64,000 nt of DNA. It comes from Coptis chinensis (taxonomy: Eukaryota > Streptophyta > Magnoliopsida > Ranunculales > Ranunculaceae). Location: the NCBI GenBank assembly GCA_015680905.1, contig CM027383.1:34284501-34348500 (forward strand). Direction: 5' to 3'. The notes below the pieces were generated by a model. The model did no database searches. It saw only the letters and a list, made by a program, of their open reading frames with translations, and was not told where the DNA came from. A program made the translations under genes and the position numbers. The first letter of the stretch is position 1. Every line of letters starts with the position of its first letter. Positions 11,720 to 62,345 of the stretch are shown one piece after another.

Positions 11720-13096
11720 TCACACAGACAACCTAGCTTACCTAGCCACTCAAACACCGAGTTGTGCTCCACGACAACTCCTCATTGAGGTAGTCGACCG
11801 ACCTGCATACCAGGTCGAACATACCCTAGTTATAGCCGATCTGTTCCCTCTCTCCGCCGATCAGTTGCGCCAGACCTGGATGCAACCCCTCATGGACTAC
11901 ATCCAACAGGGCACGCTCCCTGTAGAGCGTGCCAAAGCCAGGCAAATCCAATATCAAGCGCGTCGTTATTGCGTGTTACATGATAAGTTGTTTAGAAAAT
12001 CTGCTGGTGGACCGCACTTGCGATGTATTACTCCAGAGCAGGGACAATTGATATTTGCCGAAATCCATGAGGGAGAATGTGGAAACCATGCCGGAGGTCG
12101 TTCTTTAGCCCACAAGACAATTTCCCAGGCTACTTCGGCCTGCGTGATGCGGACCGATGCCAAAGCATACGTTCTCAAGTGCTTAAAATGTTAAACATTC
12201 GGCCACAACATCATTCAGCCCGGACGCGAGCTGATTAATATAGCAAGCCCATGGCCATTTCACATGTGGGGCATGGACATTATGGGACCATTCGTCCCCG
12301 GAAAAGCAATCGGTTTTTCGGTTCGTCTTAGCGGCAACTGACTATTTCACCAAGTGGGTCGAGGCCATTCCTTTAGCACATGTCAAAGAATCGCATGTCC
12401 GCAATTTCATCTGGACTCATATCATCACCCGATTTGGGTTGCCACATACACTCGTCATGGACAATGGACCCCAATTTAAAGGCCGAACAGTTAAAGACTT
12501 TCTAGCAAAGTGGAAGATAGTTCATGCATTTTCTACTCCACAGTACGCTCAGAGTAATGGTCAAGCGGAAGCCAGCAACAAGGCCATTTTAGAAAATTTG
12601 AAGAAAAAGATTGAAAAGAACAAGAGTCAATGGCCGAACCAGTTGGAGAACATCTTGTGGGCTCATCCACACAATTTCGGTCGATCTGCGTGAATCTCCA
12701 TTCTCCTTGTGTTATGGCACAGAAGCTGTCATTCCCATCGAGCTGACAGTCACTACGACTCGATCCGAGCTAGTGGAAACCGGACATAATGATTCTGTCT
12801 TAGCACGAGAGATCGATTTGCTCGAAGAACGGCGTGACTTAGCTACCATCAGAGTCGCATCTTATCAACAAACCCTGAAGAACTTCTACAATAAACGAGT
12901 GCATCCTCGATCATTCCAGCCTGGCGATCTAGTGCTCAAAAAGACGCAAGACGATTCCAAACTAGCCCCTAATTGGGAAGGTCCGTACATAGTAGAACGT
13001 GTTGTGGGCAACGGAGCGTACTGGATAAAAACTCAAGAAGGAAAATTGTTACCTCGCCCATGGAATACTTATCTGCTGAAACGTTTTTATCAATAA
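11720..13096 (+). pseudogene. Tat integrase, degenerate
   Basis: An H-x3-H...C-x2-C zinc domain lies near 12065-12190 (H-E-G-E-C-G-N-H...C-L-K-C). The catalytic core follows, with W-G-M-D-I-M-G-P-F near 12270, D-N-G-P-Q-F near 12460 and the Glu in G-Q-A-E-A near 12565. The C-terminal region includes Y-G-T-E-A-V-I-P-I-E and N-W-E-G-P-Y. It ends at a stop at 13096. A stop follows the zinc domain, and frame changes lie near 12330 and 12690. The enzyme would insert the DNA copy into the genome. Confidence 0.85.
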
Positions 13097-13277
13097 AACC
13101 TTTGTTGTTGTATATTATGTTTTTTTTTAAGCATGATAAGTTTCAGCTTAATTTTTATGTCACCTAGTATAAGCTATTCCATGTACTGGCATCCAAATGT
13201 CCTCCAGCTCGCATCCGACCCACGACCAGTCTACTTCCCCGCTCTCATACGCTTAACGCGCCATACGCTCTCATAAA

Positions 13278-13794
13278 CGAGAACGCTCCCTGCGAGCAGA
13301 CAGCTCTCTGGAGCTTACAGGTTACATAGCCTCTCCAATTCTTGACACGTCGAGGACCTATATTTCTAGGATCGACTAAACGAGAACGCTCCCTGCGACC
13401 AGACAGCTCTCTGGAGCTTACAGGCTACATAGCCTCTCCAATTCTTGACACGTCGAGGACCTATATTTCTAGGATCGATTAAACAAGAACGCTCCCTGCA
13501 AGCAGACAACTCTCTGGAGCTTACAGGCTACATAGTCTCTCCAATTCTTGACACGTCGAGGACCTATATTTCTAGGATTGACTAAACGAAGAACGGCTCC
13601 TGCGGCGGCGCGACTCTCTGGAGCTTACAGGCTACATAGCCTCTCCAATTCTTGACACATCGAGGACCTATATTTATAGGATCGACTAAACAAGAACGCT
13701 CCTTGCGAGCAGACAACTCTCTGGAGCTCACAGGCTACATAACCTCTCCAATCCCTGTCACGTCGAGGACCTAAATTTCTAGGGTCGACTAAAC
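13278..13794 (+). repeat. Five-copy tandem array, 103 bp unit, inside the Tat element
   Basis: Copies start at 13278, 13381, 13484, 13587 and 13691, each opening with a form of CGAGAACGCTCCCTGCG. Each unit carries the near-palindrome AGGCTACATAGCCT and a CCTATATTTCTAGG block. It follows the integrase stop by about 180 bp. Tandem arrays in 3' untranslated regions of Tat/Ogre elements are known sources of plant satellite DNA. Confidence 0.9.
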
Positions 13795-14162
13795 AGCAGG
13801 ACGTCTATTTATAGAATCATAAGCAGGACGTTAGTTACACACAAGTACACGATAACATGCAAGCCTGCACAAAGATAACCAATAACAATATATGACCACT
13901 TTCGTCATAACAACTACATCCACCGATCTGGCTGGGGATTACCCGGAAAATCCGGTCGGTGCTCATTACAAGATTAATTAGTATCGAACTGCCACTTTCG
14001 TGGAAACCCGGTTCTCTGCATGAAAAAGGACTGCTTTCGGGCAAGCTGAAAAAACACAGCTCTATTGTTAACTCTGGTATAATAGAGGGAAATGTAAATA
14101 GAACTTATAATTTATGGTCGACAGAAAAAGTAGATCCGTCATCAAATCTAAACATGACATGC
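13795..14162. other. Non-coding part of the Tat 3' region
   Basis: This is unique sequence after the tandem array. It includes a further CAGGACGT repeat word near 13797 and 13824. I see no coding signal. Confidence 0.4.
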
Positions 14163-54762: not shown

Positions 54763-55565
54763 TTCATAAAGGACTTGAGGAGCAGTTTGTTGCATGCTTG
54801 TCCTAATTATTTATAAAACTCGTTATCATTATTAATAAAATTTTCACTTAAAAAAAACAAAAAACAAAACAAAATAAGGTAATTTTTTTACTTTCAATGT
54901 TAATCTTTTATAGTTTTTTCCACGTGATAGTAGGGTTATATAAACTTATAGCATTATAGAAAGTTAACAATTTGTTGAATTATTGTAAACTTATAGACTA
55001 GATTATGTTGATATATTAGACATAGTAGTATTAATTAATGGCTTAAGTGCTTAAGTAGTTAACTTCGTCAGTCCATATTCAATTCTTAGTAGTCAACGCA
55101 CTCTAGTTTTGTGAATTGAAATAAATGCATAATTTTGTTGATCTTTATTGTTTAGACCTTCTGACAAAATAAAAATAAAAATTGCGTACTTTTTTTTTGG
55201 GTAGGGTGTGGTGTCCACGTAATCTCGCACCCCTGGCTTAGAAAACTGGCTCTATCCCTGCCGGTCAAAGGCGAGGTAGGAGAGAAGGGCGCCGGTGTGG
55301 TAGGAGACGAAGAGGGAACGGAAGGTGAGAATGGTAGAGATAATGGAGAGGTGGCCGAAGTAGGTCGGGTTAGGACGAGGTCGGTGTCGTTGATGAAGTC
55401 GAGGAGGTGAGTGAGGATAAGAGATAAGAGAAGTGCGACCAGAGTGAAAGTGGTGAATTGGTTTCTATAGTAGTAAGGGAGAAGAATAGGGACGAGTAGA
55501 AAAAGTAGTGAATTTTAGCTGTGAAGTGAAGTGAGTAAACGATGACGAAATAGGGTGGGATTTAG
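54763..55565. other. Spacer left of the CACTA element
   Basis: The first part is AT-rich. On the minus strand about 55250-55480 reads as broken hydrophobic peptide in two frames (L-V-A-L-L-L-S-L-I-L-T-H-L-L, then S-Y-H-T-G-A-L-L-S-Y-L). It may be a membrane-protein fragment that I do not recognise. Confidence 0.3.
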
Positions 55566-56453
55566 CACTACACCAAAACAGGATATTTGTAACACACACT
55601 TTTTTTGGTTCCTAACGTTTTTTAAGCGTAACTATGTTTCTAACGTTTTTTTGACGTTAAAATTGAATATAAAGTGTTACGATAATTTGTCCTGATTTAA
55701 GAATTAATTTGTAACGTATTTTAAAAGTTTTGTTTTGATGGGAAACCGTAAAGGTTAAGATAATATTAGAAAATAAAAAATTAAAGACCAAAATTAAAAC
55801 CAAATTAGAATTTTGGGCGAGAGTGAAAAAATAAAAAGATCGCCGCTCTTATATCTTCTCCCCTTTACAACTAACAACACTTATATTTTTTCAATATCAT
55901 CTCTCTTATATTTTTCATCGCCTCTCTCTCTCTCTCTCTCTCAAACTAATAAACACTTCCACCTCTGCGATGCTGCCGCCACCATTTGGTACTACTCCAT
56001 TCCTTCACCTTCTTATAGGGTTTGATTATTTTCATCATCTAATTTATACTTTTTCTCCTTTTTACACTGCTATGCCTAGGTGATCCACAACTGCAATTAA
56101 TTTCGGTTATAACCAAAGGTATGATTTTCATTTTTATATCTTGTATTCATCAATGGAAAAATTCAATTTTTATTTTCATATGTCGCGTATTCTGTAATTT
56201 TGGTGTGTGTTGGAGTTCATGATTTTAGTGGTGATATGTTTTATTTTCCTGGTTTATGGATTGTTACTCGTTTGTAGATTCTTCTTTAATTACTGTCATA
56301 TTGTTCCTGCATTGTTGTGCTCAAAAGTGTCATTTCTTTATCGGGATTTCTAGCATATTTGTTGTTTCTTAAACATAATCACATATTTTTGGTCGACAAA
56401 CAGAATGCAACGAGGAATGAGATCGTTTCTAATCTGTCTTTCCATATTACTTT

Positions 56454-58099
56454 AGGATGCAGCAGAAGCATTGGATCATCTTTTGTCCTCCTTAAGAAAG
56501 GAACTTTTAGAATGTTATGTTCCACATTATCGTTCCCTCGGCTGACATCTCTCCTTAAGCAATCGGTTTTCGTGTCCATTGTGGGGGAAGCCAAAGTGAG
56601 CAAAGAAGACCTACTTGGCGGTTTGATGGAATCCTTTGCGTGCTTTTAGCGTGTAGGAACCGCTCATCTCGTGTTCGAAATGTTTTATACTTTTGATTGA
56701 TAAGTATTTATATGAGGTCCTTATTGTTCTTGAAAGATTCTCTTCTTTGTATCGATCTAAGTTAGCTTCAATATGTGTTCTTTTACCAAAGTATCAAATT
56801 TATATTAAAACGAAAATGTAAAAGAAGTACATTAAGCCAAGTATAAGCCTTTGTCCTTAGAGGACCGAAAACTGAGTTACCTTTGCTAGGATAAGTTTTT
56901 GGTTGCAAGTTTGTAATACATGTTAAGAATGCTCTTTAAAATGGTAGCAATAGTGTAGGCGTGTAAATGTATGTCGAAACATTGTATGGGTTAGGTTTTG
57001 GTCACGAAAACAAAAGGGTGTTACCATTAGATGGGTCTTCTATAAAAATATATACATCTGTTTGTGGCCTATACAGTTATGTGCACCCTACAAACTACTG
57101 ATGTGTGTTTAAAACCAGGGGTACTTGGAGATGTCTGAAGTCTGAACTGTGAAAAGGCACATTCATATAATAAGTCCATAACTGTTGAGAACTCTAAACC
57201 GAAAATTTACTTTTAAGTAATCCTCACTGTTCAATCTGTGGAAGTCTTTTAGATGGGCAGGAAAAGAAAGCCATTGTCCTTTAATAAAGATTTTGATACA
57301 GTACTTCAAATCATCCAATTAAGTTAATGCTTGGTCCAAATATTCACCATTCACCAAGGTGTGGTAGCATTGAATAGTCAACCCATTGTGAAAGCATATA
57401 CGAGTACGTATTTCATTGCCTCTTTGTTCATCTGCTGCTATCTTATCTTTTCTATTTGTGCGTCTGCAGTTCTCAATGGGTTCTGAGTTTTTTCACAACT
57501 TGCCTTTGTCCCCATTGTTGGATGGTAGTGATTCCATTGTATGTGGATTCAGGATTTGGTCATTAGTGCTTCAGTATGTTTTATGTTCTAATTAGACTTC
57601 TATTGCTTTCATGGTAATTTTTGTATCTGACATTTATTTCACTTTTGATTTTCCTTTTAACTTCAGTTAACGGGATCTTCTGTTGAGGATTGCATTAAGA
57701 AGTTCATCATCGCTCTCGAACTCATAGAGAATTACCGGCGCAACCCGGTGTTGGCATAATTCTACAATAAAATATTTATCAATTATAGGAGGAAATGAGC
57801 TGGGTAAGTATTGGACGTATAGTATTTCTCTAGTAGTCTAGTTTAGGGAAGTCCTTTCTCAGAGGAAGATACTGCTCTTGCACACACACACACACACATG
57901 CGTCCTTAGAATAAGTAAAATATCATACATTAAATTTTTTGGTCTGTCATGTTTTGCAGACACATATTGAATCACTCAAGTCTTTGTACCAAGGAAGATT
58001 CATGTGACTGTAGAAATCTCTTTCCTCAAGACGCTATACTGTCGTCAAATAGTTTCTCATGCGTTATTAAGCAATTACGCATCACTCGCTTTCCAAAGG
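56454..58099 (+). pseudogene. Captured fragment of a UBP27-like ubiquitin-specific protease
   Basis: Four exon-like blocks lie in family order. Block 1, from 56454, reads D-A-A-E-A-L-D-H-L-L-S-S-L and then, after a frame change, F-D-G-I-L-x-V-L-L-A-C. Block 2 (about 57471-57540) reads FFHNLPLSPLLDGS. Block 3 (about 57668-57760) reads S-V-E-D-C-I-K-K-F-I. Block 4 (57959-58099) reads E-D-S-C-D-C, then S-F-S-C-V-I-K-Q-L-R-I-T-R-F-P-K. This matches the central part of the USP catalytic domain. The zinc-ribbon and surrounding residues are partly kept, and the catalytic Cys and His regions are absent. UBP27 is a mitochondrial-membrane deubiquitinase in Arabidopsis. Introns are retained, so genomic DNA was captured. 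Stops in block 1 make it non-coding. Confidence 0.65.
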
Positions 58100-58635
58100 T
58101 ATGCATTGTGAAAATCTATACCAATTCTAGGCTAAACCTGGAATCATTTTCATATGCAGGAGATTGGTGTTGAAAATAGATAAGACTGGGTATCTGCTAT
58201 GGACATTCTTATTATGGAGTCCAGTTACCATTTATAATCTGTTGACATTGAAACATTGCTACTGTCCAAGTAATTTGACATAAGAAATCCCGATACAAAA
58301 ATTTGAAGGCATATAAAAATTTTAATTTGGATTTAGAGAGGTCATTTTTTGTTTTATCATAATTAAAATTCGCTATATATTTCTATCATGTTGATTTGTT
58401 GTGTTTTCTCTGTTCTGATTACATTATACAACTTATACATATCAGGACGTCCGTAAATAGTCATTGTTATATAATTATATTTTTTATGGTTTTTTAACCC
58501 ATTTAAACTTCAAGCATGTATAAATTCATTTATTAAGTCTTTGAAATACAATACATGCTTATTTTGGATCTTGAACTATTCATTCATAGTACTAAGGTTC
58601 CTGATCATCACCTCTTATGTTTTCCCAATTTTCAG

Positions 58636-58959
58636 ATCCTTCTATTTTCTGCTACTTTTAACGAAACTATTAAAAGTTTTGCAGCAAAGCATGTTAGTGA
58701 CCCAAACCAAATGTTTGTGAAGAAAGAAGAGTTGTCACTAGATGTGGTGAAGCAGTATAAGGTGTACTGCCCGGACGAAAAAGCCAAGCTAGAGCTCATT
58801 AAGGATAGGATTTTTGAACTAGGAGACAAGTTGGGGCAGACTATCATATTTGTCAACTCAAAGAATAGTGCCAAAATTCTGCACGAAGAATTAGGTGACT
58901 ATGGTTATGGATGTACTACTCTTCATGGTAATCTTGACAAAGAATATAGGGACAAAGTG
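58636..58959 (+). pseudogene. Captured fragment of a DEAD-box RNA helicase (LOS4/RH38, Dbp5-like)
   Basis: A continuous open block follows a CAG acceptor. It reads I-L-L-F-S-A-T-F-N-E-T-I-K-S-F (motif III S-A-T), then D-P-N-Q-M-F-V and V-K-Q-Y-K-V-Y-C-P. GQTIIFVNSKNSAKI (motif IV) and T-T-L-H-G-N-L-D-K-E-Y-R-D-K follow. It corresponds to the junction of the two RecA lobes of the nuclear mRNA-export helicase family. The Walker A and DEAD motifs and the C-terminal motifs V and VI are missing. About 108 codons are intact without a stop, which suggests recent capture. Translation runs on into non-homologous sequence to 59040. Confidence 0.85.
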
Positions 58960-59122
58960 GCCACACCTTGGTTCATCGATAATATACTCTTTTTTATCTC
59001 CATTTCTTATTTTCTAGCTTGTTTAGTTCTACTGTGGTGATTGAAGTAATTGTGCTTCCTGTGCTGTAACAATTAGTTTGTTACTTCCTGAATTTTGTTT
59101 ACATATGTTATGTATCCAATAG

Positions 59123-59202
59123 GGAAGGTGCCACAAGGAGCGCTCTGGTTTTGAAGGGCCCTGGACTGTCAACCCCCTAATATTTGATAACTCTTATTTC
59201 AA
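59123..59202 (+). pseudogene. Captured exon of a cytosolic-type ascorbate peroxidase
   Basis: The block GRCHKERSGFEGPW continues as T-V-N-P-L-I-F-D-N-S-Y-F-K and lies between an AG acceptor and a GTAAGA donor. It matches one exon of plant ascorbate peroxidase, which reduces hydrogen peroxide with ascorbate. The exon includes the ascorbate-contacting Arg (in K-E-R-S) and the Trp of G-P-W. The proximal haem His lies just upstream and is absent. The exon is intact and could still be spliced into a transcript. Confidence 0.85.
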
Positions 59203-61693
59203 GTAAGAATTTTTCGGCTTTGAGATAATTTTTTCTTTGATTGAGTTCAGCTTTTATTGGGTTTCTTTATTGCTTTTTCGAAGGTTATTATTTTTAATTT
59301 AACTGCTGAAATTTATTCCCTTTTACAAGTCTAATAAGGGAGTTGATTAATAGTGTTGATTTCGTTTTATTTGATGCGGTCCAGAAACAATATGTTCATG
59401 CAATAATGCAAGCTTGAACTGTGATCTGTCAGAATATCGTTGTATTATTGCCACCGCAAGTACACTATGTTTCTCCATTGCTCTCATTGTCGCGTAAATA
59501 CTGTGTTATCCTCATTTTGTTTTCCTTTTATTACATAGGGCTTCACTGCCGTTTAAATTTGGCAATTTTTTCAATAAACTAACCTCTCTCTTTCTTTCGT
59601 TTACTCGATTACTGTGAAGGTTATGTATATTCTTCTCTTTGTTCAGTATTATAACTGTGGTTCACAACAAAGGTACGATTTTTTCTTTTTATATTTATGT
59701 TTTTTTCTATTAATTCCAGTACTTTGGTGGTCTTTTCTGAAAATGGGCAGATTTTCTGCTTCTAGTTGTGGTCGTTTTTTATTTTTTAATTATATTTCTA
59801 TCTTCAGATTATGAAATTCGGTATTGAATTTGTGTGATCTCCATTCATGAATTGTGTTTGGTCTCGAGTCTTTTAAAATGGCTTGTCCATGTAACATAGG
59901 TATGCATGCTGATTTTGGGGTTTTAGGCTACTTTTGCTTGGTAGGAAATCGGATTTCTACCTTCAAAAAGAAAAATTCAAAATTGTGATAAACGGGTGTC
60001 ATGAAAACGTAATCTAGCTTATTGAGGATGTCATGCTTATATCAATATTATTGAGATAAAAAAGATCCTTCAAACTAGGGCCTTTTTCTTTGTTGCTGAT
60101 AATCAGTATTATTGGTTTGAAATGCTAGTCCCATGCCCAGATAAAGGAGGGAGGATGGTGGTGCCTTCGACAGTTTTCACTCAACATTGGGAATATGCTA
60201 CTAAAGGCGTGTAAAAGTTTTGTTATTTGTTTTGTTGATTATGGTGAGATAGTAATGGTTATTGATGTTAATTTAGGTCTTGAAAGTTAAGAGAAAATTT
60301 TGGGTACCACTAATTAATGTAGTGAAGAGAATTGTTGATGGGGTAACATCAACACCTTTTTTAGCTTTCAACGAACAAATGTTTATGCATTTTGTGGATC
60401 ACCTCTATTTTTTTTTTCTTTGAAAGTTAAATAACATGCAAGACTTGGGTGGAACCGTGGAAGTTGTTTGTGGTTTATTATAGTGTTATCGTATGGGATG
60501 TTGTTCAGGTGCCAACATTGTGTACTATGCAGGCTTACATACAATGGTATGTTGTGGCTTAGTAAGGTATTTAGGGTGCATTGGTTGTTGTTCTGCTAGG
60601 GTCCTTTAAATAAGAAAAGTTTAGTTGTTACTACATTAGTTAATTGGGACTACTACTAGTAAGTAGTCAAACACCTTGCTGGCTAGGATGTTTTTTTTTA
60701 CGTTCTTAGTTGTAATAGACTTTTCACTTTAGCTAATATTTGGTACTGTTTCAACACTAAATAGTATGATTATGGCATTATGCACTCATATAGGTTGTCT
60801 TGCAAAAAATCATTTGGCTGGAAAGTTTTTGAGGTACTTGGGTAATATTTGGAATTAGACTTGAAATTAGCATTCACTGAATTCAGGTATGGATGTTTCT
60901 TTCATTTTGCTTGTCTTACGTATTTTAATTTATTTTATTCGCAGGACTCAAGATTTATGGAGTGTCAAGGCCTAGATAGTCGAAGAAAAAGAAGATGAGT
61001 TCCCTGACAAATCTAAAATGTTTATTTCCTTGTGCATCAAATTTCCAAATTCGCATGTTCGTTATGTGTATGACTTTTTGGTTGTGATTTGTAGTAATAT
61101 AAAGGAGTACGTATTTGATTGGATGTATTTGTGAGGTTTTTTGTTTATTGGTAACTTTTGTGGAATTTTCAAAAAAAAATGGGGGCATTTTATGCAGGTG
61201 ATTGGTGAAGGTGGTAAACGTGTGGCACGAGAAAATTAATTTTTTTTTCAATATGAAATTGTTTTGTAATGGCAAAAAAGCGTTACTAAACTCTTCATTA
61301 AGTAACACTTATAAAGTAGGAAAAACGTTAGAAATGGGTGCAAAAACCGTTAGTAAATTATTCAATTAGTAACACATACTACACGAAAAAGCGTTACTAA
61401 TTTCTCATAACCATTACTAATATCTTCATTAAGCTACGTGTACAAACTGTTAGAAATTGAAGGAAACCGTTACTATTGTTGAAAATATTTAATGCGATTG
61501 AGTTTAGAAAACCGTTAGTAATTAATTTTAGTAACGCTAAATAACCGTTACTAAAAAGAATTTGTAACGGTTACAAACCGTAAGTAAATAACTTAACATA
61601 TTAATAACGCCCAAACAGTTACAAAAATAAACCGTTACAAATATTTTTAATAACGGTTCTGCGCCGTTAAGAATATCCTGTTTTGGTATAGTG

Positions 61694-62345
61694 TAGATTT
61701 GAGTTGGCTAGCTTTTATATGAAGGGCGGGAAGTGAAGTGAAGTGAATTTGACAAAACTGACCCTGCTTAAATTTCTATTTCGACGTGTCCCAAACTACA
61801 CTACTTCATCTCTTTCCTCTTTTCTTTTCTTTTCTCTCCTCTTCTCTCACAAAACCCAAAAATCTTCCCTGCTCGCGAATGCAACCAACCCTTATTCTTC
61901 TTCTTCTTGATATCTTTCTTCAAACATTTCTTACGGGTTATTTTATTTTGTTTGAAATTTATGCCATGGTCTGACATTTAGATAAGAAACATGGAATTGG
62001 GCTTGTTTTGCATACTTACTATTTTGCTATTTCCGTATTTTATGGGAACTAACAATAGAACATGTATTTTTAACCTTGCCGACTTTTCGTCTCTTGGAAA
62101 GAAGTAGAATTAGGCCGTAGGGATTTGCACTTGGAGAAGGCATATTCTCATAGTTTCGATCACATATTCTCCAATAATATTGTGTTTATGATATTATTCT
62201 GTTTATATATGGCTAAGGTGTTTGTGGAAGCATACAAACAAGTTCATCCTAACCAGCGTCCATCCTGTTCGGGACTTGGTCAGCTGTATTCCCATCTTCA
62301 GTACTTTGGAAAATTGGAGTCGAGCTTCCATTTTCTCCTCTTTTG
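61694..62345. other. Spacer right of the CACTA element
   Basis: It holds pyrimidine-rich TTCT runs and no recognised gene. On the minus strand a TATAAAAG word lies near 61712-61719. Confidence 0.35.

Follow-up and report, generated by a model that had tools for sequence, protein, structure and literature searches.

Pack-CACTA elements with several captured loci are already known from Arabidopsis and maize (PMC8903248). The route by which DNA transposons acquire host genes remains a matter of debate. Here we describe a complete non-autonomous CACTA element of 6.1 kb from Coptis chinensis, found at positions 55566-61693 of a stretch of 64,000 nucleotides (assembly GCA_015680905.1, contig CM027383.1, positions 34,284,501 to 34,348,500, forward strand). 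This whole stretch is called the window, and positions are those of the window unless another contig is named. Like the Pack-CACTA elements of Arabidopsis, rice and maize, the Coptis element has CACTA ends, a target duplication, no transposase and coding DNA from several loci (PMC8903248). In contrast to them, its joints show one capture nested in the intron of another, together with a filler that appears templated.

The soybean element Tgm-Express1 (PMC1947982) is likewise a CACTA element with host gene pieces. It measures 5.7 kb, lies in intron 2 of a flower-colour gene and holds five unrelated fragments spliced into chimeric transcripts, which were seen by reverse-transcription PCR, whereas the Coptis chimera is known from a predicted gene model alone. 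The CACTA-like elements of Chenopodium (PMC8978399) also combine host gene pieces with subterminal repeats; unlike the present element, they keep a transposase domain beside the fragments. Animal Pack-TIRs (PMC8277862) similarly have microhomology at their joints and a template-switch account of capture. That account concerns animal elements, and its applicability to plant Pack-MULEs is left open there. Repair errors as a capture route were proposed earlier (PMC3260210, PMC8277862).

Such gene-carrying CACTA elements are known in plants, and the Coptis case is a well-resolved Pack-CACTA, with nesting and joint scars readable base by base. What it adds is that one assembly brings together a source gene, elements holding some of the pieces, the final composite and its joints, with at least one capture step bearing repair-like scars. 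A literature search, judged mostly by titles and the starts of abstracts, returned nothing on this element, nor on CACTA gene capture in Coptis or Ranunculales. None of the five gene models asked for by locus tag was mentioned in the literature searched, and the term CACTA is absent from the main text of PMC8166882, PMC8172641 and PMC13394188.

The element is, with high confidence, a Pack-CACTA non-autonomous transposon built by stepwise capture. Its terminal arms of 28 nt begin with CACTA, pair at 25 of 28 positions and have TAG on either side. Among the 679 CACTA...TAGTG pairs lying 0.3-20 kb apart in the window this is by far the best, the runner-up reaching 19 positions and having no duplication. 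In 200 dinucleotide shuffles the maximum was 21/28, or 19 when a matching 3-bp flank was included, and a chance pair of ends was ruled out by these two comparisons. The complete CACTA transposon with TAG duplication proposed in the initial annotation is borne out by the same figures.

The motif CCGTTA/TAACGG is found in 8 copies in the last 470 bp (mean of 0.43 and maximum of 3 in 500 shuffles), with a single copy in the interior of 5,488 bp. At the left end, 170 bp contain no CCGTTA and 4 CGTTA, the shuffle maximum being 5, and a clear subterminal array is present at the right end only. A second copy of the ends was not found in the window, and blastn gave no other copy of the element there.

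Between the ends lie three gene pieces with introns, all on the + strand, in agreement with the single orientation noted initially. The helicase exon has DBP5/DDX19 as its best PDB match, carries Pfam Helicase_C and is identical at 105 of 108 amino acids to the LOS4-like protein P0005. The peroxidase exon matches cytosolic ascorbate peroxidase. The protease pieces, from 56456 to 58170, match the USP-like protein P0001, with frameshifts and stops. By themselves, these pieces have no convincing PDB match (best E 0.19) and no Pfam match; joined as a protein-search query, they returned four proteins, all from Coptis chinensis. P0001 contains Pfam UCH. The initial identities were matched for all three pieces (USP30/UBP27-like, LOS4-like and ascorbate peroxidase), with the name UBP27 itself being presumed for the protease, as the analysis supports USP30 as the nearest solved relative of P0001. 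A retroposed origin of the pieces was ruled out because their introns are retained.

The nested order is seen when the helicase piece is compared with its source. P0005, a LOS4-like helicase of 467 amino acids with 322 of 467 positions identical to Aquilegia P0107, maps to locus L030 (C3:86.393-86.396 Mb). This is a complete helicase gene on another contig than the window, and the 5.5 kb fetched for it contain no CACTA end. L030 aligns to the element on both sides of the USP block, namely along a short intron remnant on its left and along the helicase block on its right (Table 1). It follows that the USP piece was inserted into a helicase intron and that capture was stepwise. The initial annotation is corrected here in that the captured stretches are nested and do not form three blocks in a row. 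Around the USP insertion, about 330 bp of the host helicase intron are missing. Two of the related elements described below, L011 and L012, retain more helicase sequence left of the insertion; the window and L009 do not.

Table 1. Position of the element, its captured pieces and the associated gene model in the window.
Feature	Position	Strand	Details
Left target-site duplication	55563..55565	no strand	TAG
5' terminal inverted repeat	55566..55593	+	25/28 positions pair with the 3' arm
5' CACTA backbone	55594..56286	+	common to many elements; genome places match within query 1-723 at 70-97%
LOS4 intron remnant, 39 bp	56290..56328	+	left of the protease insert; 39/39 with L030
USP (UBP27-like) block with introns	56322..58285	+	95% to locus L010; coding frame broken by frameshifts and stops
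Apparent filler template	56339..56351	-	13-nt inverted match
Public gene model IFM89_033377 (P0002)	56512..60214	+	exons 56512-56595, 57470-57573, 57960-58098, 58636-58927, 60129-60214
Filler at USP-LOS4 joint, 7 nt	58286..58292	+	AATCCCG
LOS4-like helicase block	58293..58960	+	intron 58293-58635, exon 58636-58959; 93.7% to gene locus L030
Ascorbate peroxidase block	58957..59253	+	exon end, intron, whole exon 59123-59203
3' CACTA backbone	59254..61693	+	
Subterminal repeat array	61224..61693	+	CCGTTA/TAACGG motifs
3' terminal inverted repeat	61666..61693	-	
Right target-site duplication	61694..61696	no strand	TAG

For the comparison within the same genome, 18 loci were aligned first and further loci were fetched later, with the ends judged within the fetched stretches. 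The three-gene composite is present at five places, which are the window, L009, L011, L012 and L029. Both ends and a duplication were located in four of them (TAG in the window, TTT in L009, CCT in L011 and GGT in L012). L029 has the composite from window position 57557 onward and the 3' end, its 5' end being outside the fetched stretch. Within the fetched stretches, the adjoining three pieces were encountered with CACTA ends each time, two at four places and the 3' one at L029, rather than outside any CACTA element. The closest of the three other two-ended composites to the window is L009, with a Kimura two-parameter (K2P) distance of 0.041. At a rate of 1.3e-8 per site per year, this divergence corresponds to about 1.6 million years.

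Relatives sharing the ends were also found elsewhere in the genome. Counting the window and 11 loci, 12 elements have both ends located, and 10 of them have identical 3-bp flanks. Several elements hold a subset of the pieces. L018 (duplication GTG) and L021 (TAA) have the peroxidase without the helicase or USP blocks, and L031 and L032 are elements with helicase and peroxidase, USP not being found in the fetched stretches. In L013-L017, similarity to the window covers the USP piece (56596-58243) and the ends, the latter at 71-74%, with matching flanks in four of the five. USP sequence with no CACTA end found is present in L010 and L022-L024, and only a 5' end is seen in the fetched stretches of L019, L020 and L026. 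Of 769 candidate places for the 3' half of the element, 40 were scored, and 39 other places among them matched it wholly or partly; for this reason it is regarded as the family backbone.

The boundaries of the USP piece fall into two sets. In the USP-only subfamily, all three loci that were compared have them at L010 1735-3384, and in the composites they run from L010 1446 to 3414 or 3426. Judging from these boundaries, the two sets point to one USP gene captured twice.

L013-L017 (on C3, C7, C3, C9 and C8, respectively) form a second 6-kb Pack-CACTA subfamily with USP boundaries of its own, and the K2P distances among its five copies are between 0.024 and 0.045.

The joints between the captured pieces carry further marks. 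At the left USP joint there is a 7-nt microhomology, CAAAAGT, which is present in both sources and identical in the window, L009, L011 and L012. At the right USP joint a 7-nt filler is found. Extended by 3 nt on each side, it matches the beginning of the USP block in inverted orientation over 13 nt. The same 13-mer was seen in 0 of 2000 shuffles, and 1 of 2000 reached 13 nt when the matched stretch was allowed to vary. The filler looks like an inverted copy of sequence at the opposite end of that USP insert. This right joint is common to the window, L009 and L029 (with one filler change in L029), and L011 and L012 share another one.

The helicase and peroxidase pieces meet exon to exon at GTGG (58957-58960), a 4-nt microhomology present in both sources. 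This joint is exact in the window, L011 and L012. An exact-pattern search did not find it in L009 or L029, though the alignments run through the joint, and the helicase-peroxidase joint of L032 differs from that of the window. Taken together, microhomology and filler appear repair-like, being the scars expected of DNA break repair. From the microhomology, the templated filler and the retained introns, we infer that the USP piece entered through faulty repair of a DNA break or gap within the element.

Alternatively, duplication and break repair could first have assembled the composite at a chromosomal site outside any transposon, with flanking CACTA insertions later mobilising the whole stretch. 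For Arabidopsis Pack-CACTA, tandem insertion followed by re-mobilisation has been proposed, and rice and maize elements have been used to argue for it (PMC8903248, PMC13317346). Under this model, it is hard to place the elements that, between related ends, hold the peroxidase, helicase plus peroxidase, or all three pieces. USP is also found inside the helicase intron in the elements and not at the helicase gene L030, and the joints resemble repair scars. We consider this origin of the composite unlikely, and tandem insertion may explain the first capture. For the USP step, the nested joint and the filler suggest that break repair fits better than tandem insertion alone.

Stepwise capture would have proceeded as follows. 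Related elements carry the peroxidase alone, or the peroxidase and most of a LOS4-like helicase gene. A piece of a USP gene was then pasted into the helicase intron of a helicase-bearing element, and internal deletions would have left the helicase and peroxidase exons adjoining. The element was copied to several chromosomes, presumably moved in trans by a CACTA transposase made elsewhere. The ends, the duplications, the composite copies, the nested order and the sequences of the joints are observed directly, and we infer both the exact order of the capture steps and the mobilisation in trans.

These results hint at a more general, tentative possibility, which we hold at somewhat less than even. 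CACTA elements may enlarge step after step, each nested capture arising from synthesis-dependent repair of breaks within the element itself. Captured introns would serve as landing sites, the same host gene would be taken twice by different lineages, and the filler would be copied from the other end of the new insert. If so, capture would be a ratchet inside the element and not a by-product of tandem insertion.

Several observations weigh against stepwise capture as the explanation of the element. The initial annotation had the blocks deriving from parental genes of the same genome, and this holds for the helicase, with its complete source gene L030. The best USP source, L010, has none of three catalytic-site patterns in 9.9 kb and may itself be a fragment. 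The best matches of the peroxidase piece are repeated peroxidase copies that are themselves incomplete, and tracing it did not lead to an intact gene. Among peroxidase places where a pair of CACTA ends is absent, the nearest are L028 and L033, both missing part of the exon that follows; L035, an ascorbate peroxidase-like gene that is more complete, matches over only 87 bp at 84%. Two elements, L015 and L025, have no matching target duplication; the last letters of L015 are TAGTC, and the flanks of L025, an element with two 5' ends and a single 3' end, differ from each other (CCA, TCA). In L031 and L032 the 5' ends are only 70-76% like those of the window while the 3' parts reach about 94%, so that recombination between elements complicates a simple chain of captures. 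Lastly, an autonomous element with the same ends was not identified among the loci compared.

As for the transposase, the Pfam scan covered all 40 stop-to-stop frames of at least 50 amino acids overlapping the element and 1 shorter frame (of 84 with at least 35 amino acids). No transposase family was found in it, as the initial annotation had stated. Only Helicase_C was above the cut-off, and the few matches below it were all to non-transposase families. Since no transposase was found, movement of the element must rely on other sources. Matches to transposase family PF02992 are plentiful in the genome, and all 150 scored, of 2715 candidates, were over the cut-off. None of these 150 matches falls in a listed element, as judged by eye. 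Two longer stretches, C5:85905632-85923844 and C7:16701416-16716805, have the two ends of the family at their borders. L019 and L026 have no transposase-sized reading frame (three frames of 124-143 amino acids in L019, none of at least 120 in L026).

The public gene model IFM89_033377 runs through the captured pieces. Its translation equals a five-exon splice of the element letter for letter, and all four introns are GT-AG. The model omits the peroxidase exon, uses a different frame for the first USP exon and terminates at 60214, within the 3' backbone. At the exon-to-exon joint of helicase and peroxidase in the window the peroxidase frame is lost, the other frame being seen in P0008. The joint enters a different peroxidase frame and therefore encodes no in-frame helicase-peroxidase fusion. 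Of the open blocks with usable splice sites described initially, the helicase exon remains as such; the peroxidase exon lies beyond an out-of-frame joint and is skipped by the gene model.

Selective maintenance of a functional chimeric gene or protein would agree with the open helicase exon, its usable splice sites and the existence of a public gene model. Compared with the source gene, this exon has 7 synonymous and 3 non-synonymous differences (synonymous divergence dS 0.113 and non-synonymous divergence dN 0.012, over 108 codons). It has 0 window-only changes in 276 comparable sites, against 65 in 5309 over the element, and it is open in L029 too, with a 12-nt in-frame deletion. However, about 3.4 changes were expected, so the zero is a weak hint, seen in hindsight. 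The excess of synonymous differences may in large part reflect the history of the source gene itself. In three of the four other composites (L009, L011 and L012) the exon is disrupted internally by a stop or frameshift, and it is also broken in L031. The predicted protein lacks the DEAD part of the helicase and reads its first USP exon in the other frame, and there are stops in the USP coding sequence. Maintenance by selection seems very unlikely to us, and the encoded chimera is most likely a by-product without protein function.

Small RNAs from the captured pieces could also act on the parent genes. The pieces are 94-97% identical to their nearest non-element genomic matches, which makes such action possible. 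On the other hand, the captured blocks form no inverted repeat in the self-comparison, where only terminal and subterminal repeats were seen. The chance of such a role appears slim.

The public gene models of C. chinensis include transposon chimeras, namely IFM89_033377 and at least those of P0003 and P0004, a point that bears on how gene families are counted in this medicinal plant. The model of P0004 is found at L011 (C2:36173500-36183400). It has a start matching FKBP_C and spans the Pack-CACTA, and its last 76 amino acids map past the 3' end of the element. The block 60129-60214 and the stretch 60505-60573, shared with P0004, were considered as captured genes and rejected, with no Pfam match and being part of the 3' backbone of other elements.

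Some of the loci are of interest in themselves. L028, L033 and L034 represent a repeated, partly deleted peroxidase region, with the CACTA 3' half and end present in L034 and not found in L028 or L033; L028 was discarded as an intact peroxidase source, as part of the next exon is missing there and likewise in L033 and L034. L027 (C3:116044000-116049500) is a helicase paralogue, rejected as the helicase source for its partial match and interrupted exon. The interruption, of about 400 bp, falls where the window exon matches, and the aligned pieces overlap by 8 bp, as with an intron or a small insertion with target duplication. In L025 (C7:23956000-23965900), the first 299 bp of the element are present as two direct copies separated by about 1.3 kb, a layout like that of a nested or tandem CACTA insertion.

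Rfam and tRNA scans of the window found nothing. About five tandem copies of a 103-bp unit are present at 13274-13795, shortly past an integrase-like reading frame (rve, 12244-12690). A long O-methyltransferase reading frame, with Pfam Methyltransf_2 and a dimerisation domain, is located at 1960-2871. O-methyltransferases of this type take part in alkaloid synthesis in this plant group.

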